Positions 7,108 to 38,783 of a stretch of DNA of 61,618 nucleotides are shown piece by piece (the first letter of the stretch is position 1; every line of letters starts with the position of its first letter). This stretch comes from a virus. The notes below the pieces were generated by a model, which searched no databases, had not been told where the DNA came from, and saw nothing but the letters and a program-made list of their open reading frames with translations. The stretch is from IMG/VR virus record IMGVR_UViG_3300030331_000798, positions 1-61,618 of that record; one strand, written 5' to 3'. A program made the translations under genes and the position numbers.

Positions 7108-8625
7108 TCAGTAATATGCACGGACTTTGGGGTAATATTCCTCTTCGTCGTCGTAATCTGAGTCTAGTCTCAAAAATCCACCATTTCTAAAGCGTATTAA
7201 CGCTAATGTTGTGGAGTCCACCAAATCATCATGCTCTCCGTTAGGAAAGTCCGTAACTTCTTCCATTAATTCTTCAGCCCAGCGGTTTTCTGGCACCCAA
7301 ACCTTACCTTCTTGGAACATAGGGCTGACTGAATTCAACCTTGCAATCTTATCTTGGCCTTTGTTGGGTGAATACGTGTTAATCGGTATACCGAGTCTGC
7401 GTAATTCTTGCGTTAGCGGGATACCTGTTGCTTTCGTTTCAATAATTACAGAATCAGGATCCCAATATTCGTACAAACGTATCGCTTCTCGCTTTAGCTC
7501 AGGAAAATCTAGTCGCTCTTTTACACAATCAATCAAGATAATGTGCGCCTGACCTCCTGGATACATCTCATCGTTGATTTTTCCTTCCGGATAGAACACA
7601 CCCCACGTGGTTATTGCTGTAAAGTCAGCACGTTCAGACTTTAGAAACGCCGTATCGTAACTTTGAATTAAATATTCACAAGCTGGAGGCGCGTCGTTAG
7701 GCCAAATCTTGAACCATTCTTTCGGAATAATAGAAATACCTTCGCCGGTTGGCCGCTGCATGTACTGAGCCGCCCATTTCGAAGGAGGAACCGAAGCCTT
7801 AATCGACTCAAGTTCTTCTAATTTCCAAAATTCAGGCCATAACGATTTACCCGATGGCAAGATTGCAGGAAACTCAATCAGTTCCCATTGGTCTGCGTTC
7901 TTGTCTTGCATCATTTTCTTGATTAATTTACCCGTTAAATCTTTTTTAGACCAACGAGTCATCACGATAACGATAGCACCTCCTGGTTGGAGACGCTGTC
8001 GGGGGCCAGTCATAAACCAATCGTAGGCTTCGTCTAGTGATTTATCGGAAAACGCATCTTGTTCGGAGTGAGGATCGTCGATAATAAACAAATCAGCACC
8101 ACGACCTGCAAGTGCACCGCCTATACCTGACGCATAATACTCACCGCGTTGCGAAGTTAACCATTTACCCGCGCTTCTTGAGTCAGCTTTTAGTTCTGTC
8201 TTAGGAAATATCTCACGATATTCTTCAGTGTCAATTAAGTCACGCACCTTACGGCCAAAGTTTATAGCTAGGTCAGCCGTGTGCGTTGCTTCAATAATTT
8301 TTAACTTAGGATTTTTTCCTAACAAGTAAGCAGGAAACAGGTGTGACGCAAATTCAGACTTCGTATGTCTGGGCGGCATGTTGATAATTAACCGCTTTAG
8401 CTCACCGCTTGCTATTTTATCAAACGCCTGTGCCATTTTACGGTGGTGATCACCGTTAATAAATTCAGGCCAGATGATTTTTACAAAGTCAATAAAGCTA
8501 GAAGCAGAAGTTTCTCTGCGTTCGCGCTTTTCAAGTTCTTCAAGGAGAAGTGTAAACTCTTTTGCTTCACTCTTAGATAAGAATGACAGGTCTACGTTTT
8601 TTAGATCCTTGAGGATATCACTCAT
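7108..8625 (-). CDS. terL: terminase large subunit (packaging ATPase and nuclease)
   Basis: 505 aa. The ATPase has a Walker A variant PPRHTKSE (residues 84-91) and a Walker B FIIDDP (180-185). The C-terminal RNase H-like nuclease shows the expected acidic residues: D324 in QSYDTAF, E396 in VIIETKATG and the EHDDLVD cluster (464-470). All key residues are present. It drives DNA into the head through the portal encoded just downstream and cuts the concatemer. Its partner TerS is unusually far away (15478-16011). It overlaps the upstream gene by 4 bases. Confidence 0.96.
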   Translation of the reverse strand: MSDILKDLKNVDLSFLSKSEAKEFTLLLEELEKRERRETSASSFIDFVKIIWPEFINGDHHRKMAQAFDKIASGELKRLIINMPPRHTKSEFASHLFPAYLLGKNPKLKIIEATHTADLAINFGRKVRDLIDTEEYREIFPKTELKADSRSAGKWLTSQRGEYYASGIGGALAGRGADLFIIDDPHSEQDAFSDKSLDEAYDWFMTGPRQRLQPGGAIVIVMTRWSKKDLTGKLIKKMMQDKNADQWELIEFPAILPSGKSLWPEFWKLEELESIKASVPPSKWAAQYMQRPTGEGISIIPKEWFKIWPNDAPPACEYLIQSYDTAFLKSERADFTAITTWGVFYPEGKINDEMYPGGQAHIILIDCVKERLDFPELKREAIRLYEYWDPDSVIIETKATGIPLTQELRRLGIPINTYSPNKGQDKIARLNSVSPMFQEGKVWVPENRWAEELMEEVTDFPNGEHDDLVDSTTLALIRFRNGGFLRLDSDYDDEEEYYPKVRAYY

Positions 8626-12299: not shown

Positions 12300-13774
12300 T
12301 TGTAGCTCTTACCGTAATATCCTTTTTGGAAAACCTGACCACCAGTCTTATAACTTGCTGGCACCATCATTCTTTTGCGACGTCGCGTTCCTGGACGACC
12401 GCCCATGTTCTTCTTTTCAGTCTTCGCAGCTTGCCTAAAGTTCTCAGCTGTCGGTGCACCTTTCTCACCTTTCCTTCGCATCCGCTCACCAGAGCCTGCT
12501 GCTATACGTTTACGCTTCGCGTGTATATTTGCATATAATCCTGGACGACCGCCCTTGGCCATTAGGTCAGGATCTACATCACTGTCTCTTAGTAATCTTT
12601 CTAATTCTCTCGTATATCTTCTCACAGTTTCAGGCTCCAGATTTTCTCGGTTCAACTGTGCTCGAAGAGAATCTATCATCGACGCATTTTTTCCACGCGG
12701 TATTGGGTCAAACTCACTACTACCCTTGGGCATTGTTCCTGATCTACGTGCCGCATCTAAATCTTTATTTAACCCTCTTAGTGCCGCATCTAATCCTGCT
12801 TCCGAAGATCTAGGGTTCATCGAACCTTCTAACATATCAAAAAGAGAAGGTAAGCCGCTTTCAGACTCTCGATTAAAATCTAGTTCCATTTGGTCGTCTG
12901 CAAGCCCTCTGTTTCGACGCGTAAACGCAGTGTCTCGAGGAGGTAAACCTTGTGCTATTCTCGCCTCATCTTCCTTATGCTGCTTTAGTAATGCTGTGCG
13001 ATGTCTTTGTGTTTGTGACGCACGTCTCTCAGGTTGTTTAATCGGATCAAGAAAATCAGGGTTTGTTTCGTCCGAAGGGAATGTTGGGTTTTTATACTCT
13101 TCATAATACCTAGAACGTGGACGAGTAGGGATTGCACTTTGCCGTATTTCTTGTATAAGGTCGTCAATATTGACCCCTCTTTTTGCTGCCATAGCGTACA
13201 GTTTTTGAAAAGCCTCTGTAGGTAACTCATCCGTTAACCCTAAATCATAGGCTTCTAAATCTTTTGCTAAAAACTCCGTTCTTCCCTCGACTATGTTTCT
13301 CGGCGAATAATACGACCCACTAGGTCTCATCCTCCTCAGCTCACTAGGGGTTGCGCCCTGTTCTCTTAATAAATCTATTTCGGACTTATCTGGGTTCTTT
13401 TCTTTACTTAGTAGTCTTTCTACAATTGCTTCAAGCCCTTCGCGCATACTCTTAAAGCGGCCACCAGGACTCATCGCTCCCATTACAGTAGCAGCAAGTC
13501 CCGCCTCTTCTACTGGTAAATCTGTTACCGAATTAATTAACTCTTCAACTGATGCAAACTCACCAATGCCTTCTAATAGTTCTGATAACCGTCCGTCGCT
13601 TATCGCTTCTGTAAGTGCGTATGCAGGAATCCCACTAGTAGCTACTTCAATACTTTCCGTATCGGTGGGGAGTCCTACTGCTTCCGTTACATACCTTAAA
13701 CCGCCTAGTGCAACATCTGACTTGCTTAACTCATCTTCGAAATCTTCTTGCATTTCATAGGAGTCTCTAGCCAT
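12296..13774 (-). CDS. hypothetical head-module protein, basic C-terminus
   Basis: 492 aa from the second of two nearby ATGs, which overlaps the upstream stop as TAATG and has AAGGTG at proper spacing. The N-terminal 150 residues are helical and acidic. The middle is Arg/Asp rich and looks disordered. The last 100 residues are very basic with MAKGGRPGLYANIHAKRKR and NMGGRPGTRRRKRMM, a tandem GGRPG motif, then a final GGQVFQKGYYGKSYK. The basic tail suggests DNA contact, which is inference. No known family recognised. Confidence 0.5.
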   Translation of the reverse strand: MARDSYEMQEDFEDELSKSDVALGGLRYVTEAVGLPTDTESIEVATSGIPAYALTEAISDGRLSELLEGIGEFASVEELINSVTDLPVEEAGLAATVMGAMSPGGRFKSMREGLEAIVERLLSKEKNPDKSEIDLLREQGATPSELRRMRPSGSYYSPRNIVEGRTEFLAKDLEAYDLGLTDELPTEAFQKLYAMAAKRGVNIDDLIQEIRQSAIPTRPRSRYYEEYKNPTFPSDETNPDFLDPIKQPERRASQTQRHRTALLKQHKEDEARIAQGLPPRDTAFTRRNRGLADDQMELDFNRESESGLPSLFDMLEGSMNPRSSEAGLDAALRGLNKDLDAARRSGTMPKGSSEFDPIPRGKNASMIDSLRAQLNRENLEPETVRRYTRELERLLRDSDVDPDLMAKGGRPGLYANIHAKRKRIAAGSGERMRRKGEKGAPTAENFRQAAKTEKKNMGGRPGTRRRKRMMVPASYKTGGQVFQKGYYGKSYK

Positions 13775-14070
13775 TACCATTTCACCTTATCGGCCCAATA
13801 AGCCGCTGACATTTTTCCTTTAGCAATGTTCTTTCCATGGCGAGCTTTGAAGCTCTTGCGCCTCGCCTTCTGCTTATCTGACTCACCCTTCTTAGGCTTG
13901 CCTGCAGTCTTCACGCCTTGCTGCCCGAAACGAATGAGTTTTAACTTGTGTCCTTCTTGCGCTAATACCATATGCGACTTCTTCGGATGGCTGGGTGTGC
14001 GCTTCGGTTTGTTCACACCCTTCAAGTTGTGCTTCTTGATTAAGTTCGCTCTACGAGTTTCATGTGCCAT
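13774..14070 (-). CDS. conserved small basic phage protein
   Basis: 98 aa from the ATG at 14070, which begins MAHETRRANLIKKHNLKGVN. The segment KPKRTPSHPKKSHMVLAQEG and the C-terminal KSFKARHGKNIAKGKMSAAY are patterns that I recognise as strongly conserved in many tailed-phage genomes, without a known function. A longer frame upstream to 14223 is open but its residues do not look coding and it lacks a ribosome site. It is the first gene of the head/packaging transcript. Confidence 0.75.
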   Translation of the reverse strand: MAHETRRANLIKKHNLKGVNKPKRTPSHPKKSHMVLAQEGHKLKLIRFGQQGVKTAGKPKKGESDKQKARRKSFKARHGKNIAKGKMSAAYWADKVKW

Positions 14071-14256
14071 GTGCGAATCGTAACTCTTTATATACGTCAC
14101 GCGCAACGCTCTAAAAAAATGTCGCGAAAAATTTTTGAGGTAGGAGTCCCACGGAAATCTGCGAAAAATTTGTGGTCTGGGGACCCGTAGCAAAAGTACA
14201 GAGAAAAAAGAGGCTGGAACCAAGAAAGGTGAGTGGGTGGGTGGGTAAGGGGGGCC

Positions 14257-14280
14257 CTCAGGGGGGTATACCCCCCTGAG
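14257..14280. repeat. 24-bp perfect palindrome
   Basis: CTCAGGGGGGTA is followed immediately by its exact reverse complement. It is preceded by further G and C tracts (14249-14257). No T tract follows on either strand, so it is not an ordinary terminator. It could be a protein-binding dyad, part of an origin or a transcription block. Confidence 0.85.
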
Positions 14281-14370
14281 CTAACAAGCCAACACACACA
14301 ACTAACTAACAAGCCAACACACACAAGGTTAGCACCTGGGCGGCAACTAACTAACAAGCCAACACACACA
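14281..14370. repeat. three copies of a 20-nt repeat
   Basis: CTAACAAGCCAACACACACA occurs at 14281-14300, 14306-14325 and 14351-14370. A diverged fourth copy (TAACAAGTCAACACACACA) lies beyond the next gene at 15227-15245. Confidence 0.9.
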
Positions 14371-14373
14371 CTA

Positions 14374-14447
14374 GTGTAGAGATTGCCTAGCGCATAGGTG
14401 TAGAGACTACCTAGCGCATTGCCATAAGTATTGCCTAGCGCATAGGT
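14374..14447. repeat. iteron-like array with 24-nt period
   Basis: CCTAGCGCAT starts at 14386, 14410 and 14434, exactly 24 nt apart, inside longer similar units containing GTGTAGAGAYTRCCTAGC. The exact spacing suggests binding sites for an initiator or regulator. Confidence 0.8.
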
Positions 14448-14564
14448 TTAGGTTTATACTTAGGTTGTTAATCGCGCTCGTAGGTGCGGGAATGGGGTCG
14501 CGGGGCGGCATACAAAGTTCCCACTAGCCATGCGAGATTATTAACCGTTGGGCAGCTTGTGTAC

Positions 14565-14594
14565 TTGACGGCTGGAGTGTGCCTGTAATATACG
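14565..14594 (+). promoter_or_regulatory. sigma70-like promoter for the 157-aa gene
   Basis: TTGACG (14565-14570) and TATACG (14589-14594) are separated by 18 bases. Two identical GTTAGCGTTA boxes follow at 14607-14616 and 14625-14634, 18 nt apart, in the place of an operator. Confidence 0.6.
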
Positions 14595-14669
14595 TCATGC
14601 ATAACAGTTAGCGTTAGCAATCCTGTTAGCGTTAACTTACTTGTTAATCTTTAAAAAGGAATTTTTATT

Positions 14670-15143
14670 ATGGCTAATTCAAATACAGCTAACAATCAAG
14701 TCAACGCGGAAGTCAGTGTTAAACAAGCGATTGCAAACATTGATAAGAAGAAAGTTGACTTAGGCCAGTTACCTGATTTAACTGAATCTACAAAGGGTGG
14801 TGGTTCTAAAGGTAACGCTACCAATGTGTTTGATCATAACAAGGCATCAAACATTAAATGGCCAGCTATACCGGCTTGTGCCTATTGGGGTTATCAACAT
14901 CTTTGTATTGAGAATGGTTTAACCTCCGGCAAAGATGGCTTTACTGACTCAGAGATTGAAAAGGTAATCATCATTAAACAAGAGGCTGAACGTAACTCTA
15001 AAGGTGATGAGACAGGCCGGACTTTTTACACTTATAAAAACCTTAAAACAGGTAAAACTTATAAGTCAGTTCAAAGGCTTAACAAACACCTAACCGCTAG
15101 CGGTTACGCAAAGCGTATGAACGAAGTATTAACTAGGAGCTAA
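14670..15143 (+). CDS. unknown protein, isolated plus-strand gene
   Basis: 157 aa, preceded by AAAAAGGAAT and its own promoter, followed by a terminator, so it is a stand-alone unit between two minus-strand blocks. The first 55 residues are Asn/Thr/Gly rich and probably disordered; the rest (from about FDHNKASNIKWPAIPACAYW) is compact and mixed, ending in a Lys-rich helix with TYKSVQRLNKHLTASGY. I see no DNA-binding motif that I trust. Its position between repeat arrays suggests an early or regulatory role, or a moron; both are inference. Confidence 0.7.
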   Translation: MANSNTANNQVNAEVSVKQAIANIDKKKVDLGQLPDLTESTKGGGSKGNATNVFDHNKASNIKWPAIPACAYWGYQHLCIENGLTSGKDGFTDSEIEKVIIIKQEAERNSKGDETGRTFYTYKNLKTGKTYKSVQRLNKHLTASGYAKRMNEVLTRS

Positions 15144-15160
15144 TACCTAGCTAACAAACT

Positions 15161-15184
15161 AGCCTACCGTGTGTGGGCTTTTTT
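15161..15184 (+). terminator. rho-independent terminator of the 157-aa gene
   Basis: AGCCTAC (15161-15167) pairs with GTGGGCT (15173-15179) with one G:T wobble and a 5-base loop, followed by six T residues. It lies 18 bases after the stop codon. Confidence 0.8.
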
Positions 15185-15416
15185 GTTACTAGTCACTAAC
15201 AAGTGATTAAACGCTGGACACAAACTTAACAAGTCAACACACACATAACAAATAACAAAACGCTGGACACATAACAAACAAACGCACGTTAACAAACTTG
15301 CACACGTTTGTTATAACAAACCGTTGGACGGCTTGTTAAAAATCGTAATCCGTGGGTCGGTCGGTCACTCAATGAATGAATGGGTGGGTGGGCGGGTGGC
15401 GCACGCGCGATTGATT

Positions 15417-15702
15417 GATCGAGTAGAGTAGAGTAGAGCGAGTAGAGTAGAGTAGAGTGACTGATCGAGTAGAGTGATCAATCGGTGCTGGTGTTAATCA
15501 CTTCGCCCTCGATGGTCCGAGGTGCTCGTTTGCTGATCAAGTCGCTCAGTCGATCGATCAGCTGGTCCTTGCTAAGTCCGTCGATCTTAGCGGTCAAGAC
15601 TTCCCGTCGATCGATGTAGAGTCCCCCTGCCTTCCCTCGGTGGATCTCTGCCGTAATGGCTGCGTTAATCTGTCCTTGGTCCCTCGCCTCCTCCCTCAGA
15701 TC
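15417..15702. promoter_or_regulatory. candidate pac site: GATC cluster in the 3' part of terS
   Basis: Ten GATC sites (starting at 15417, 15463, 15476, 15535, 15552, 15556, 15583, 15609, 15643, 15699) fall in 286 bp, where about one is expected by chance. TGATCA or TGATCG hexamers occur at 15462, 15475 and 15534. In phage P1 the pac site lies inside the small-terminase gene and consists of TGATCA/G hexamers sensitive to Dam methylation; the likeness is suggestive only. Confidence 0.45.
15420..15476. repeat. GAGTA microsatellite
   Basis: Several runs of the pentamer GAGTA, interrupted by CGAGTAG and GATC-containing units, lie immediately beyond the TerS stop codon. They form the left edge of the GATC-rich segment. 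Confidence 0.85.
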
Positions 15703-16011
15703 ATGTAGAGCAGATAGATGGCTCTCCATGGAAATCTTTTCTCTTTCCTCGGCCTCTATCTCCTGCTCAATCAGATAGTTTCGGACTAGTGGGTTGTGAT
15801 TGAGTAACACACTGCCTTGTCGCTTCGCAGCGTTGCGGTTCTTCGTGTAGCCTGCTTTTACAGCGGCATCGGTGGCGTTCTGGCCTTTAACGTACTCCCT
15901 TACAAACTTCTTTTGTTTCGAGTTGAGTTCCTGCCACGTCTTACCATCGGGGTCGACGTAACCGTTACCATCGTCTGTAGGAACCATTGGGGTGTACTTT
16001 AGTTCTTTCAT
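15478..16011 (-). CDS. terS: terminase small subunit
   Basis: 177 aa. LNSKQKKFVREYVKGQNATD (about residues 29-48), AAVKAGYTKNRN and the following helix match the N-terminal helix-turn-helix of the Terminase_2 family: Leu-x-x-Lys-Gln-x-x-Phe-Val then Asn-Ala-Thr-x-Ala-Ala and AGY. The centre is a helical oligomerisation region with EREKISMESHLSALHDLREE. It would recognise the pac sequence and load TerL. It stands alone, 7.4 kb from terL, behind its own long regulatory region and after the early-operon terminator. Confidence 0.85.
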   Translation of the reverse strand: MKELKYTPMVPTDDGNGYVDPDGKTWQELNSKQKKFVREYVKGQNATDAAVKAGYTKNRNAAKRQGSVLLNHNPLVRNYLIEQEIEAEEREKISMESHLSALHDLREEARDQGQINAAITAEIHRGKAGGLYIDRREVLTAKIDGLSKDQLIDRLSDLISKRAPRTIEGEVINTSTD

Positions 16012-16020
16012 CCAGTCTTT

Positions 16021-16290
16021 CCGAGTGTTTCAACTGGGTGAAGTATAGTTTATATATGTAATCTTTTTTATAAAAAGTAAAAGTTTTCTCGTGGCCTTCT
16101 TTTCTTATATTCTCTCTTGAAACTAATAACTAATAGATTTTCTATTACTTTCGTCACTCACCACTATCCACTGTTCTCGAGGCTTTCACCCTCATTCTAT
16201 TACTTCTATTAGTCTATTAGTCGTTTTTGTTAATTTTTTTAAAAAAAGTTAAATCTCTCACAGAACAATATATCTAATATCTAATATCGA
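16021..16290 (-). promoter_or_regulatory. regulatory region before terS, homologous to the one before the SNF2 gene
   Basis: Read on the minus strand this AT-rich region contains CTAATAGA and TAATAGA blocks (16222-16195), CTATTAGTTATTAG (16136-16123) and GGCCACGAGAAAACTTTTA (16096-16078) in the same order as the plus strand at 37148-37278. No gene is seen in it. A promoter probably lies in the TATATA-rich stretch near 16050-16056. Confidence 0.65.
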
Positions 16291-16301
16291 TCGCTGGGCA
16301 T

Positions 16302-16335
16302 AAAAAAGCCCCAGTCCACCTAAATGAACTGGGGC
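16302..16335 (-). terminator. rho-independent terminator of the early operon
   Basis: GCCCCAGT (16308-16315) and ACTGGGGC (16328-16335) form a perfect 8-bp stem with a 12-base loop, followed on the minus strand by six T residues. It ends the long minus-strand early block and shields terS. Confidence 0.92.
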
Positions 16336-28399: not shown

Positions 28400-28713
28400 T
28401 GTTCTAGCCTCCTTATGTCTGTGTTGTTCGCTCTGATCTCGCTCTCTACTAGAAGCAGATACCGTCTCAGATCTCCTATGTCATCAAGTAAACCGTCCTC
28501 TCCGATATACTTGCCCCCTGCTTCGAACACATCGTAATTACAGTCTTTACTCTGTTGTTCGATACGGTCGAACTTACGGGCTAACATCATAAAAGCCCCA
28601 GTTCCTCCCCTACGTTTCCAAGAGTCCCCGTAAGACTTCTCAGATTCGATCAAGCTATTTATATCGTGCTGTGCGATATCTTTTATACTCTGCCACTTAG
28701 GATCCAGTGCCAT
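28378..28713 (-). CDS. MazG/DUF1599-like protein, possible nucleotide pyrophosphohydrolase
   Basis: 111 aa from the ATG at 28713 (GGGAGG 6 bases upstream). SEKSYGDSWKRRGGTGAFMM, LARKFDRIEQ and LLDDIGDLRRYLLLVESE match a common all-helical phage family related in pattern to DUF1599/MazG. The acidic helix residues (E, D in FDRIEQ and LDDIGDL) would hold metal. Directly after the ThyA-family gene, a role in dNTP hygiene (removing an unwanted nucleotide) is plausible but unproven. Confidence 0.6.
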   Translation of the reverse strand: MALDPKWQSIKDIAQHDINSLIESEKSYGDSWKRRGGTGAFMMLARKFDRIEQQSKDCNYDVFEAGGKYIGEDGLLDDIGDLRRYLLLVESEIRANNTDIRRLEHWESEEE

Positions 28714-29749
28714 GTTTTGCCTCCCAGTTGAGTTGTCTTTTCTTAATCCATGCAAAAGCGGCTTCTTGCCAATCTTCTGCTTGAATTCTTTCAATCTCTC
28801 TATAACTTTCAACGTAGTCTCTCTTCTTGTGTTGTGTAAATGCTTTAATCATCGGTTCAATGACAAACGGGAAAATGTTATTTTTAAAACTGTCCCAGCT
28901 GATCGAGTTACAGTCTGCAATACTTAGCTCTAAGTCTTTATTCACAGGTAGACAGTTCAGGAAATACTTACACTCATATAGAAATGTTTGAGGGTGGTTA
29001 ACTATCGGCACTTGTTTTTTGGGATAGTACATAGGTAGCTGTTGATAGAACCCGTCGAAATCTATTAAGCGAATCTTTTCCCACTGTTCGGTTTCGTAGA
29101 CATGAAAGCTGTCGCTAATTTGATAGTACTTACCCATCGGTAAATCGAGTCTCGCCGCTATGTATTCTTGAAGAACTGACATATGAACTACGTTCGCTCC
29201 GTAGGCTCCCCAGATCATATCGTTCGACCTGTTACAGACTGTCATCTGTAGCTCGCCTTCTCGAATCTTAAAATAGATATTGGTGTTGCAAGGGATATCT
29301 ATGCTAGAGCTGTTTAGATCTTTTATAGCGTTCCACATCTGAATAACACAACGCCTTGAGTCTGGGTCTTTCTTTAACATCGAAACCACAGTTTCTATTT
29401 GGTTCAGCTTAAAAGTGTTTAACCACCTATGGCCATATGCCCCGTTTAGTGTTTTACCGTCATCGGAGAACCGCTTCATCCCGTCGTTAAAATGAGTAAG
29501 CTGTCTTAAATTCTCGGAACCTGCCATCATCCAGATAGCTTCTACTAGGTGGAAAAACGGGTTAGCGTCTCGAGTTTTCTCTAATAAAACTCGCTCCCAA
29601 GGTTTTTCATAGACTGTCGTAACTGGATGGATACACTCTAGCGTTGTTCCGTTACGGCTTTCTTGTCTCCTAAAATTTACATCGCTTCTAAATAAATCAA
29701 CGCCTTTTCTAAAAGCATCGTTAACATTGTTAGCACTAATCACCTTCAT
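28697..29749 (-). CDS. ThyA-family pyrimidine methylase or hydroxymethylase
   Basis: 350 aa from the ATG at 29749 (GGAG 7 bases upstream, 14-base overlap with the preceding gene). Catalytic Cys154 lies in DIPCNT, the phosphate-binding Arg pair is R132-R133 (DSRRC), and RSND (174-177) and GAYGANVV (181-188, with Asn186) form the dUMP site; H216/Y218 follow in SFHVY. Asn186 suggests a uracil substrate rather than cytosine. This is the divergent phage branch that includes dUMP hydroxymethylases, so it may make dTMP or 5-hydroxymethyl-dUMP. Its neighbours favour the latter. Confidence 0.85.
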   Translation of the reverse strand: MKVISANNVNDAFRKGVDLFRSDVNFRRQESRNGTTLECIHPVTTVYEKPWERVLLEKTRDANPFFHLVEAIWMMAGSENLRQLTHFNDGMKRFSDDGKTLNGAYGHRWLNTFKLNQIETVVSMLKKDPDSRRCVIQMWNAIKDLNSSSIDIPCNTNIYFKIREGELQMTVCNRSNDMIWGAYGANVVHMSVLQEYIAARLDLPMGKYYQISDSFHVYETEQWEKIRLIDFDGFYQQLPMYYPKKQVPIVNHPQTFLYECKYFLNCLPVNKDLELSIADCNSISWDSFKNNIFPFVIEPMIKAFTQHKKRDYVESYREIERIQAEDWQEAAFAWIKKRQLNWEAKHGTGS

Positions 29750-29978
29750 ATAGGCTCTCCGTGTTGTCAATCATAATTTGTTCGATTTGAAGTAAAGAAA
29801 CCCAACCAGTTCCTCCGATGTTTTTCTGCTGCTCGTGAATCCATGCAACAGCATCTGACCAAGTGTTGGGCATGCTGTGGTCTTTCATACACATTTGCAG
29901 AAACTCATGGTATTTAGTCATAACCCAAGTAACTTTAAGACTGCTCATGTCCATCAGGTGCTGCTTTAATTTGCCCAT
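29736..29978 (-). CDS. small hypothetical protein in the modification cluster
   Basis: 80 aa beginning MGKLKQHLMDMSSLKVTWVM, helical, with a WSDAVAWIHEQQKNIGGTGW segment. It overlaps the hypermodification gene by 13 bases and the ThyA-family gene by 14, so it is clearly part of the same translated unit. No family recognised. Confidence 0.6.
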   Translation of the reverse strand: MGKLKQHLMDMSSLKVTWVMTKYHEFLQMCMKDHSMPNTWSDAVAWIHEQQKNIGGTGWVSLLQIEQIMIDNTESLYEGD

Positions 29979-30895
29979 TTACTTTCTCCCTCATGCAAAT
30001 CTTCGATTATCGGTCGGTCTCTTTTGGAGTAGTCGTAGACGCTACGAGTCCGTCCTTCCCCCTTCAAGATCCTAGAGTATTTATCAAACTCACATAGACC
30101 TCCTTCCACTTCCCGCATCTCAAACGGCATTCGATACTTAATCCGCAACTCCTCTTGGCAGATAGCGTAGAGTTCTTGCATCTCTTTATTCCAATCGTGT
30201 GAGCGTTTACAGAACCCGAGGGGTCTGCCTGTAAGCCTGTTTAGTCCTCTCATGGCTCCTGGACCTGCGTTAGCCCAGCTACAGGTGTCAGTAGCTTCGT
30301 CTAATATGTAGGTGTGGCGTAGGTCAGTCACGATCTCGTAAGCAACAAACGGCCCGATGTACGGGTACTGTAGTAAAAACTCCCACGCTTCTTGTAACGT
30401 AGTCATCTTTTCTAAAGAGGAGACCAGTCTCTCTCGCTCAACCCATATATGTGTAACGCACTCAGCAACTCCCTTAACTTTGTTCATGCGGTTAGGGGTC
30501 TTGACTATGTAAGCCCCCGTTACCCATTTAGGCTGCTTGCTGACCTCTTCTATCGCTTTTTCTCTGTCCCAGTCGAGGTGTAGGTTATGTTCGAGTAGCG
30601 TTCTACCCGTTTCGATCAAGTTAAAAAACCTGAAGATAATCGTAGCCATAACCACTTCAGGCTCTGCCGACAACGGTCTGCGTATGTGTGCTGCAAACCA
30701 GCGGGTCGTTCTGTCATCTTCTCGATAGACTTGGCAAAACTTAAACGTCTTAAAGATCTCGTCTTCAGTCCAAGGAGGGTCAGCGTCAGCGTCCTCTTTT
30801 TTACGTCGAATACTTTCCCGCTCCTCTATCCAATAGAGATAGCGGTCAACCTCTTCGTTTATAAAAGTCTTGCCTTTTTTCTCAATCAGACTCAT
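29966..30895 (-). CDS. putative DNA base hypermodification protein (aGPT-PPlase / amino acid:DNA transferase-like)
   Basis: 309 aa. PPWTEDEIFKTFKFCQVYRE (residues 40-59) and DDRTTRWF, then IIFRFFNLIETGR, PYIGPFVAYEIVTDLRHT, ANAGPGAMRGLNR and a C-terminal MREVEGGLCEFDKYSR with GEGRTRS. This order matches the helical family first described as alpha-glutamyl/putrescinyl-thymine pyrophosphorylases, now amino acid:DNA transferases, and the related 5-hmdU-kinase helical domain. These act on modified thymines in phage DNA. The start is the ATG that overlaps the methyltransferase stop (ATGA). Confidence 0.78.
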   Translation of the reverse strand: MSLIEKKGKTFINEEVDRYLYWIEERESIRRKKEDADADPPWTEDEIFKTFKFCQVYREDDRTTRWFAAHIRRPLSAEPEVVMATIIFRFFNLIETGRTLLEHNLHLDWDREKAIEEVSKQPKWVTGAYIVKTPNRMNKVKGVAECVTHIWVERERLVSSLEKMTTLQEAWEFLLQYPYIGPFVAYEIVTDLRHTYILDEATDTCSWANAGPGAMRGLNRLTGRPLGFCKRSHDWNKEMQELYAICQEELRIKYRMPFEMREVEGGLCEFDKYSRILKGEGRTRSVYDYSKRDRPIIEDLHEGESKWAN

Positions 30896-31755
30896 ATTCT
30901 TTTTCTCAAGACCCATGCGCAGTTGTTAGATACTTCTGGGTAAAACGTCGCGGAAACTACTCTAAGAAACTGTTTACCGTAGCGTTCTTCTAAAAGTTCA
31001 AACTGATCGGGCCATAGCCGCCATTCGGCATCCTCCCCGTCTTTATGCATAGCTGCTTTTAGTTTAGGCATCTGAATAAACGTGCCAACTACAGACTGTA
31101 GAAACCAGCCTCGAGAGTGTCGGGTTAATTCTTTCTTAAGTTCTTCAAACCCCCACTCGTATACATGGTCTTCAGGTAGTTTGTCGTTAGACCCGTCATG
31201 GTTAGGAGTAGAGACATAAATCAGACCTCCTGGTCGTAACACACGATTAGCGTCGTCAAGCCACGCTTGTATAAACTCACGCCCCATGTGCTCTATTACT
31301 TCTGTGGTCCAGAAGAAATCAATAGAGTTGTCTGGTACATCAAACACAGGGTTAACGGTGAGATCCTGAATGTCAATTTGTCCGTTAAAGTTCTTAAACC
31401 AAGTAGAGTCTTGAACCAGTCCTGTGGGGCTGGAGTACCCTTGCTTCTCGTTGAGGCAAGCAGGGTCTATATCGACTCCTCGATAAGATGCAATCACGTC
31501 AGACTTCTTAACGGTGTAGGCTTTGTACAGGTTTCGGAGAACCCATATCTCTCCACACCCTGCTTCTAGCACGTTGATAGGTCTGTCAAGGAACTTCGCT
31601 TCCTCAATGCAGAGCGAAGATATTTTATCGTAACGAGTCATGTGTGTGATCTCGTCAGGTCGCCAGTTTCCTAGCATGTTTCCACTAGCAATATCCATGC
31701 GAGTGTTTTTACTGTTGTTGACATTTTTGTCAAGCTTCTTTCTAATAGAGGCCAT
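30892..31755 (-). CDS. class I SAM-dependent methyltransferase
   Basis: 287 aa. Motif I is VLEAGCGEI (62-70, E64 start of AGCG at 65-68), GVDIDPAC follows as motif II, then FFWTTEVIEHMG and VLRPGGLIYVSTPN, as in Methyltransf_11-type enzymes. It has no DNA-methylase DPPY or NPPY motif, so it is not an evident N6A/N4C enzyme; the acceptor may be a small molecule, protein or a modified base. It leads the cluster with the hypermodification and ThyA-family genes. Confidence 0.82.
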   Translation of the reverse strand: MASIRKKLDKNVNNSKNTRMDIASGNMLGNWRPDEITHMTRYDKISSLCIEEAKFLDRPINVLEAGCGEIWVLRNLYKAYTVKKSDVIASYRGVDIDPACLNEKQGYSSPTGLVQDSTWFKNFNGQIDIQDLTVNPVFDVPDNSIDFFWTTEVIEHMGREFIQAWLDDANRVLRPGGLIYVSTPNHDGSNDKLPEDHVYEWGFEELKKELTRHSRGWFLQSVVGTFIQMPKLKAAMHKDGEDAEWRLWPDQFELLEERYGKQFLRVVSATFYPEVSNNCAWVLRKRI

Positions 31756-36991: not shown

Positions 36992-37340
36992 CGGCAGTCG
37001 GTTACAACGCTTTAGTAGCAGATACAACTAAAGGATGACTCATCCTTCGGAGCAAGTCTGGCCCCCTTGTAGTTGGAAACGGGCTTTCTATTAGTTCTAT
37101 AGTCTATCTGTAGAATTTTATTTTTTATAAAAAATTTAACAGAATCGTCTAATAGAGTAATAGATCTAATAGAACTAGAGTTAAGAGTCTGTTCTATAAG
37201 AATTTTCTTACTGGGTGAAAACTAATAGAATTCCTATTAGTTATTAGAAGAATAAAGAGGCCGCGAGAAAACTTTTAATCTCTCATATATATTCTTCTCT
37301 ATATATATTATTCTTCGCGTAGAACTTAGAAAGGATTAGG
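36992..37340 (+). promoter_or_regulatory. 349-bp region before the SNF2 gene, homologous to the terS leader
   Basis: No gene seen. It contains an AAGGATG/CATCCTT hairpin (37033-37049), then CTAATAGAGTAATAGA (37149-37164), CTATTAGTTATTAG (37234-37247) and GGCCGCGAGAAAACTTTTA (37259-37277). The last three blocks match, in order, the minus strand at 16222-16078. A promoter for the helicase is probably in the AT-rich end (37285-37312). Confidence 0.65.
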
Positions 37341-38783
37341 ATGAAATACGAGTTTAAAACTGAACCGTATGCTCATCAAAAAGACGCTCTGCTTAAGGCT
37401 TGGAACAAAGAGCACTATGCGTTCTTTATGGAGATGGGTACGGGGAAGTCAAAAGTTTTAATAGATAACTTTGCGATACTTTACAGTAAAGGCTCAGTAA
37501 CGGGTGTGGTTATTGTGGCTCCCAAAGGAGTTTACCGTAACTGGTCAGAACGAGAGCTACCTACGCATCTACCTGATTACATAGATCACCGGATAGGTGT
37601 CTGGTCTCCCTCGCCTAAGAAAGAAGAGAAACAAAAGCTGATGGATTTGTTCGAGGTAACTAACGAGCTAAAGATTCTAGTGATGAACGTAGAAGCCTTC
37701 AGCACTAAGAAAGGACTGACCTTCGCTGAGAACTTTATACTGGCTCACCAGACACTGTTAGCAATCGATGAGTCAACGACAATTAAAAACCCTAAAGCGG
37801 CTCGTACCAAGGCTCTTATCAAACTTTCTAAAAACGCTAAATACAGAAGGATACTGACAGGCTTTCCTATTACGCAGTCTCCTTTAGATCTGTATTCACA
37901 GACCGAAGTTCTTTCTCCTAGTTTGCTAGGGTTTACTTCGTTCTATTCGTTTCAGAACCACTACGGTCAGGTCGTTAAACGACACTTCGGTGCTAGATCA
38001 TTTAGACAGGTCGTAGGCTATCAGAACCTAGAAGAACTTTCGGAGCGCGTAGATAGGTTTTCCTACCGCGTACTGAAAAAAGAGTGTCTTGACTTACCTG
38101 ACAAGGTTTACCTTCGCAGAGAAGTAGAACTAACCCCTGAACAAAAGAAAGTTTACGGTGAGCTAAAAGAGTATGCGATAGCAGAACTAGGCGAGATGGA
38201 GCAGGTGTCAGTAAACAACGTACTCACGCAAATGCTCAGGCTTCACCAAGTCGTTTGTGGCTATACGAAAACAGACGAGGGAACAGAAATACCTATAGAA
38301 AACAATAGGATAGACGAACTGATCAATGTCATCGGTGAGATGCGAGGCAAGATTATTATATGGGCAAATTACCGACACAACATAAAAGAGATCGTGGAAA
38401 CCATGCAAGAACTAGGTGGGCCTGATTGCGTAGCTAGTTACTACGGCGATACTTCTGACGAAGAAAGAGAAAGCGTTATAGAACGATTTCAAGATCCTGA
38501 TTCAGAACTTCGTTACTTCGTAGGAAATACACAAACAGGAGGATACGGGATTACGCTGACTCAAGCACAAAATGTAATCTACTACTCGAATAATTTTGAT
38601 TTAGAAAAGAGGCTGCAGTCCGAAGACCGCGCACATCGGATAGGTCAGGACAGTAAAGTGACTTATGTTGACCTAGTCGCACCAAAAACCGTTGACGAAA
38701 ATATCGTCAAGGCTCTTAGGAACAAACTAAATCTAGCTCAAGAAGTATTAGGTGATGAAAAATGGAAGTCGTGGCTAACCTAA
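37341..38783 (+). CDS. SNF2-like SF2 helicase/ATPase
   Basis: 480 aa. Motif I MGTGKS (32-37), motif II DEST (143-146), RRILTGFP as motif III, and in the second lobe IIWANYRHN, GGYGITLTQAQNVIYY and EDRAHRIGQ as motifs IV-VI. It lacks accessory domains, so it is a minimal SNF2/DEAD-type translocase as found in many phages. A role in replication fork remodelling or recombination is likely. Its last 9 bases overlap the end of the next, oppositely oriented gene. Confidence 0.94.
   Translation: MKYEFKTEPYAHQKDALLKAWNKEHYAFFMEMGTGKSKVLIDNFAILYSKGSVTGVVIVAPKGVYRNWSERELPTHLPDYIDHRIGVWSPSPKKEEKQKLMDLFEVTNELKILVMNVEAFSTKKGLTFAENFILAHQTLLAIDESTTIKNPKAARTKALIKLSKNAKYRRILTGFPITQSPLDLYSQTEVLSPSLLGFTSFYSFQNHYGQVVKRHFGARSFRQVVGYQNLEELSERVDRFSYRVLKKECLDLPDKVYLRREVELTPEQKKVYGELKEYAIAELGEMEQVSVNNVLTQMLRLHQVVCGYTKTDEGTEIPIENNRIDELINVIGEMRGKIIIWANYRHNIKEIVETMQELGGPDCVASYYGDTSDEERESVIERFQDPDSELRYFVGNTQTGGYGITLTQAQNVIYYSNNFDLEKRLQSEDRAHRIGQDSKVTYVDLVAPKTVDENIVKALRNKLNLAQEVLGDEKWKSWLT

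Follow-up and report, generated by a model that had tools for sequence, protein, structure and literature searches.

Does the dense run of GATC sites at the small-terminase gene of this virus mark the place where packaging of its DNA begins (pac), and, if so, is it read under Dam control, as in phage P1? The locus lies in IMG/VR record IMGVR_UViG_3300030331_000798, the whole of which (61,618 nucleotides, hereafter the window) was analysed. The original prediction was that of a P1-like, Dam-sensitive pac inside terS, with ten GATC in 286 bp where about one would occur by chance. The features of the locus, together with the large-terminase gene, are:

15478–16011, minus strand: terS, small terminase of 177 aa, Terminase_2 family (PF03592, 1.6e-14; phrog_51, 6.7e-21)
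7108–8625, minus strand: terL, large terminase (phrog_38, PF17289, TIGR01630)
15417–15660, no strand: GATC array with nine of the ten sites; it begins around codon 118 of terS, crosses the stop codon and extends into the repeats beyond the gene; candidate element for the initiation of packaging
15699–15702, no strand: the remaining GATC, on the 5' side of the boundary at about codon 118
15420–15475, no strand: CTCTA-type tandem repeat interleaved with GATC, downstream of terS
15381–15399, no strand: CCCA-type tandem repeat, further downstream of terS
16100–16335, minus strand: hairpin of a terminator, and an AT-rich leader bearing ACTAATAGA-type repeats; both upstream of terS

The excess itself was confirmed. 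Positions 15417–15702 hold 10 GATC against a chance expectation of 1.04, other non-overlapping places in the window hold 5 at most, and order-3 Markov simulations gave a maximum of 8, reached in 3 of 300. The sites (at 15417, 15463, 15476, 15535, 15552, 15556, 15583, 15609, 15643 and 15699) form a continuous array. They are not all inside terS, as had been thought: seven lie within its codons, the one at 15476 overlaps the stop codon, and those at 15417 and 15463 are downstream of the gene. At the codon junction of the 15699 site, the clade shows no preference for GATC (4 of 27, with 9.1 expected). Several other 4-mers also peak at 14.2–15.7 kb of the window.

How much of this is required by the protein? 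With the codon usage of the genome, 3.7 GATC are expected in terS and the 7 observed were reached in 11 of 400 resamplings; when its own synonymous codons were shuffled, 5.9 were expected and at least 7 appeared in 129 of 400. Much of the coding part is thus explained, in this genome, by the amino acids of terS and its G/C-rich codons, and the window taken singly barely exceeds codon constraint. This result, like the GC3 of 0.44–0.72 in terS versus 0.26–0.40 in terL, favours an explanation without function, in which the GATCs would stem from slippage in repeats and from the atypical codon make-up of terS.

The relatives, unlike the window alone, show GATC beyond what the protein needs. A scan of viral contigs supplied terS relatives (the best 80 of 94 were used), which with the window made 81 genes; 77 of these had a stop codon and no N, 66 were distinct, and they formed 27 clusters at 95% nucleotide identity. 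Expectations were calculated for each codon junction permitting GATC from pooled terS codon usage, the sequences being related to each other. Across the 27 clusters (drawn from the best 80 of 94 relatives), 23 GATC were found before codon 118 against 84.3 expected, and 217 after it against 92.7 expected. The boundary near codon 118 was noticed before testing; the permutation test lets the boundary vary. With site order permuted 5000 times, no permutation (0 of 5000) equalled the change point. The corresponding values were 0.0004 for the 16 clusters of subclade B and p = 0.045 for the 11 of subclade A (the window included). Subclade A was chosen by eye from the tails; in a tree of the 5' codons with midpoint rooting it afterwards proved monophyletic. 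When 4-mers were ranked at this fixed boundary, GATC was the most polarised of the 132 testable ones (of 256; t 4.5, next 2.5), and in the first 95 codons it was the most depleted (21 vs 64.0). Relative to base composition (28 loci), the observed/expected ratio was 0.19 at gene bases 120–240 and 12.75 between codon 119 and the stop; over the 60 bp that follow terS it was 8.0, yet any GATC occurs there in only 8 of 26 loci.

Individual sites are less stable than the array. On the tree built from 5' codons only, most 3' GATC sites change more than once, and synonymous codon identity in the 3' part (0.54–0.66) is not clearly higher than in the 5' part (0.46–0.67), which suggests that single GATC sites turn over while their density persists. 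If the middle segment, itself under the influence of GATC, is the sole source of codon usage, the excess there drops to 153 vs 123.8, and GACT and ACGC deviate more than GATC in this segment.

The explanation without function draws further on the surroundings of the array. Of the 29 tandem-repeat rows of the 61.6-kb window, 12 (some overlapping) start at 14228–16270, in a 2-kb zone (14228–16288), and the DNA downstream of terS changes fast, its tandem repeats differing between near-identical strains. Among 35 non-redundant regions, CTCTA repeats were found in 11, CCCA/CACC repeats in 29 and GAYN runs in 18, and protein tails of the DRSIDRS type resemble expanded GATC repeats. However, depletion before and excess after codon 118 persist in codon models derived from terS itself, no other testable 4-mer is comparably polarised, and the excess is found at most junctions of codons 121–157, which are protein-conserved and free of repeats. 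An origin of the cluster in slippage and codon composition is regarded as unlikely.

At the genome scale, the array is the densest GATC window in the three array-bearing full contigs (G006, G008 and G012, with 10, 17 and 17 GATC; elsewhere at most 7), while three outgroup contigs (60,000 bases each) contain no window with more than 5; in the GATC-poor outgroup G011 the top window nevertheless falls at the terS 3' end. The densest window lies over the array in 23 of 26 cluster loci and further downstream in L015, L016 and L046. Among seven intermediate relatives, the array is present at 79% terS identity and missing from 6/6 loci at 62–71%. Bacterial genome records supplied 16 terS genes at a greater distance, none of them with an array (lowest Poisson P 0.06). 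On the sequences compared, the array is a clade-specific trait: the expectation that related genomes keep GATC beyond codon constraint holds in the close clade and fails in the next relatives.

Eleven ORFs of the window were array-only in a comparison of the three array contigs with 60,000 bases each of three non-array contigs, six contigs being too few to conclude from. The best conserved full-size one (13774–14223; 73–76% in 3/3 array contigs, absent from 60,000 bases each of 3/3 non-array contigs) encodes a basic protein of phrog_7595 with a weak match to phrog_220, "minor head protein and DNA pilot". A plus-strand ORF of 157 aa at 14670–15143, convergent with terS, had no PHROGs or Pfam match and was not found in the six compared contigs.

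What could be read within the array was approached through the flanks of the sites. Downstream of terS these are symmetric (19 vs 16, p 0.74), and a directional recognition motif was rejected on this ground; the lack of direction suggests that GATC itself is what is read. An RNA element was also rejected, the mean fold z-score of the region being -0.78 (28 loci), with no Rfam match in the window.

Physical ends were considered as well. The first and last 100 bases of the window agree at 99 positions, so that it represents a circular assembly, as had been stated; the accompanying idea that headful packaging accounts for this is weaker, because a 100-bp circular overlap is compatible with headful packaging but not specific to it, and circularity alone cannot tell it from other strategies. 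Contig ends are unusually frequent, compared with nearby positions, in the 200 bp that follow the terS match (11 of 80 loci, L001–L080, the best 80 of 94). These are possible physical ends, although assembly breaks driven by the repeats explain them equally well. A 61-kb contig of a Gammaproteobacteria bin (NYWC01000010.1) carries two related terL matches (L181 and L182), one near each end, and is possibly an over-long circular phage assembly.

The region on the other side of terS offers a rival place for pac or for an origin. A replication origin or sequestration site, in which SeqA-type or initiator proteins would read the GATC cluster and the AT-rich, iteron-like leader, has in its favour that this conserved leader with its ACTAATAGA-type repeats lies directly upstream of terS, and that GATC clusters occur at Dam-controlled origins such as oriC. 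On the other hand, parts of the leader are recognisable in relatives down to 62% terS identity, including ones that lack the array, exact TTATNCACA boxes occur in the window only at 904 and 28938, and no skew switch is confined to the array locus; an origin appears improbable. The TCTATTAG/ACTAATAGA repeats cluster twice in the window, upstream of terS (16121–16222) and at 37087–37242, upstream of an SNF2-type helicase gene at 37341. Are these shared operators or origin iterons?

The terminase proteins themselves are informative. In the PDB, TerS matches the small terminases of Pam5 (3e-6) and SF6 (2e-4 to 4e-4), and Pam5 is described as placed among "P22-like headful" phages by its TerL (PMC9382816). 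By this likeness to Pam5 and SF6, TerS is assigned to a headful-type family. TerL passes TIGR01630 (psiM2 ORF9), has a weak match, below cut-off, to the T7-type TerL model NF033889, and gave no match to solved structures. A near-DNA search of a phage collection with 14–19 kb of the window returned no match, and no tRNA genes were found in the window. In genome collections, matches to the TerL alignment (the best 80 of 99) reached at most 61% identity and came mostly from metagenome bins; no host was called from them.

The genes bearing on DNA modification are:

28697–29770, minus strand: thymidylate-synthase-like protein, likely for thymine hypermodification (PF00303, 9.6e-24)
29966–30916, minus strand: 5-hmdU DNA kinase (PF18723, 2.5e-43)
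30892–31755, minus strand: SAM methyltransferase beside the kinase, target not assigned, without a [DNS]PP[YFW] motif

The kinase gene was found in 15 of the 17 phage contigs; the two without it are shorter (36.6 and 42.8 kb). Taken together, the thymidylate-synthase-like protein and the kinase make it likely that the DNA of these phages is thymine-hypermodified; with the SAM methyltransferase they probably make up one hypermodification set (28697–31755). Both strands of GATC include a TC step. In the accounts given of phages M6, ViI and phi W-14, TC and TG appear to be the preferred steps for thymine hypermodification, and the hypermodified M6 DNA was methylated by Dam only in part (PMC6449724).

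A narrower form of the pac reading is that of a P1-like, Dam-gated site, at which GATC methylation, by a Dam from the host or the phage, would control terminase binding and cutting. It gains from GATC itself being the enriched word with non-directional flanks, and from the partial methylation of M6 DNA by Dam. The hexamers give a divided picture. TGATCA/G, predicted at 15462, 15475 and 15534, is present at all three, as well as at 15416, and CGATCA, the complement of TGATCG, stands at 15555, so that five of the ten array sites, and not three, are P1-type (p 0.03 against the window rate; 43 of 224 GATC sites genome-wide); in the clade, though, such hexamers are at background (51 of 259 sites). 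Against Dam gating, no Dam-family methylase was found above cut-off in the searched phage contigs, some of which are fragments (PF05869 0/17, PF02086 0/14; two PF01555 matches in 14 contigs were below cut-off), and the phage's own methyltransferase lacks [DNS]PP[YFW], the motif of the usual adenine-N6 methylases. That this enzyme (30892–31755) is a hidden Dam is also unlikely from its best structural-sequence matches, which are weak and to small-molecule-type methyltransferases; its relatives occur in non-array contigs too, and a PADLOC match to mad2 (4.9e-10) does not tell its target. Dam gating is held to be doubtful.

In our estimation, with a probability of about one half, the GATC cluster is a selected cis-acting element, most likely a pac region to which TerS would bind and at which TerL would cut. 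The GATC excess sets in sharply near codon 118 of terS and continues past the stop codon as far as the repeats beyond the gene. The predicted headful-type HTH small terminase would bind the GATC-dense DNA beside its own gene and recruit TerL, leading to the first cut, and the thing read could be adenine-methylated GATC, the bare sequence or a modified thymine. Counting against the pac reading are (i) the weak codon excess in the window alone, the p of 0.045 in subclade A and the middle-segment value of 153 vs 123.8, (ii) the synonymous identity, the presence of downstream GATC in only 8/26 loci and the three loci (L015, L016, L046) that are densest elsewhere, and (iii) the position of SPP1 pac, described at the start of terS (PMC4737164), taken with the conserved AT-rich leader upstream of terS here, and the weak NF033889 match.

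An extension of the pac reading, which we put forward tentatively and regard as doubtful too, is a GATC-gated packaging switch that would have evolved convergently in a thymine-hypermodified clade. The array would license DNA in the right modification state, namely adenine-methylated GATC or hypermodified T in TC on both strands, and GATC would have been removed from the 5' part of terS, leaving a single place where the signal can be read. If these proposals are right, GATC-dependent packaging, which has been described in P1, evolved again with a terminase of unrelated origin; the packaging site could be mapped in uncultivated phages by sequence alone, and how DNA modification is linked to packaging could be tested directly. 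Should Dam play no part, a codon-level signal with so sharp a boundary within terS would still help to locate pac in phages known from metagenomes.

In searches of the open-licence literature, no listed title or abstract opening describes a GATC array at the terS end in this phage group. Among known phages, HTVC023P-type pelagiphages, 023Pt_psg01 and DSL-LC04 resemble the window in having a TerL 51–60% identical and a terS several kb from terL; unlike the window, the terS 3' ends of HTVC027P, 023Pt_psg01 and DSL-LC04 all lack the array. SPP1 and SF6 are similar in that TerS matches the SF6 small terminase and that SPP1 pac lies at terS and holds repeats. SPP1 pac is described as spanning promoters and the start of its small-terminase gene (PMC4737164), whereas the array here is located at the terS end and made of GATC.

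The likeness to P1 consists in a GATC cluster in or beside the small-terminase gene. P1 pac is given as a 161-bp region with seven hexamers under Dam control (PMC10028697). The P1 record has eight GATC in the first third of pacA, at bases 194–375 (about 180 bp). Every one is a TGATC[AG]; the cut is annotated near base 276, with four of the sites to its left and four to its right, and an IHF site is present as well. Here, by contrast, the hexamer is at clade background, with 5/10 in the window, and the array is continuous and 3'-terminal, with no exact match to the IHF consensus within 15417–15702. BLASTP of PacA against TerS and PacB against TerL gave no significant similarity (E 0.11 and 0.13), and the terminases of P1 thus appear unrelated to those encoded here. 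Judged by hexamer, by the two groups with an IHF site and by the PacA/PacB-type terminase, the array would not be classed as a P1-type pac. What stands of the proposed P1 likeness is an array in and just after the gene of a small terminase similar to those of Pam5 and SF6, and, by analogy, this array may work like P1 pac.
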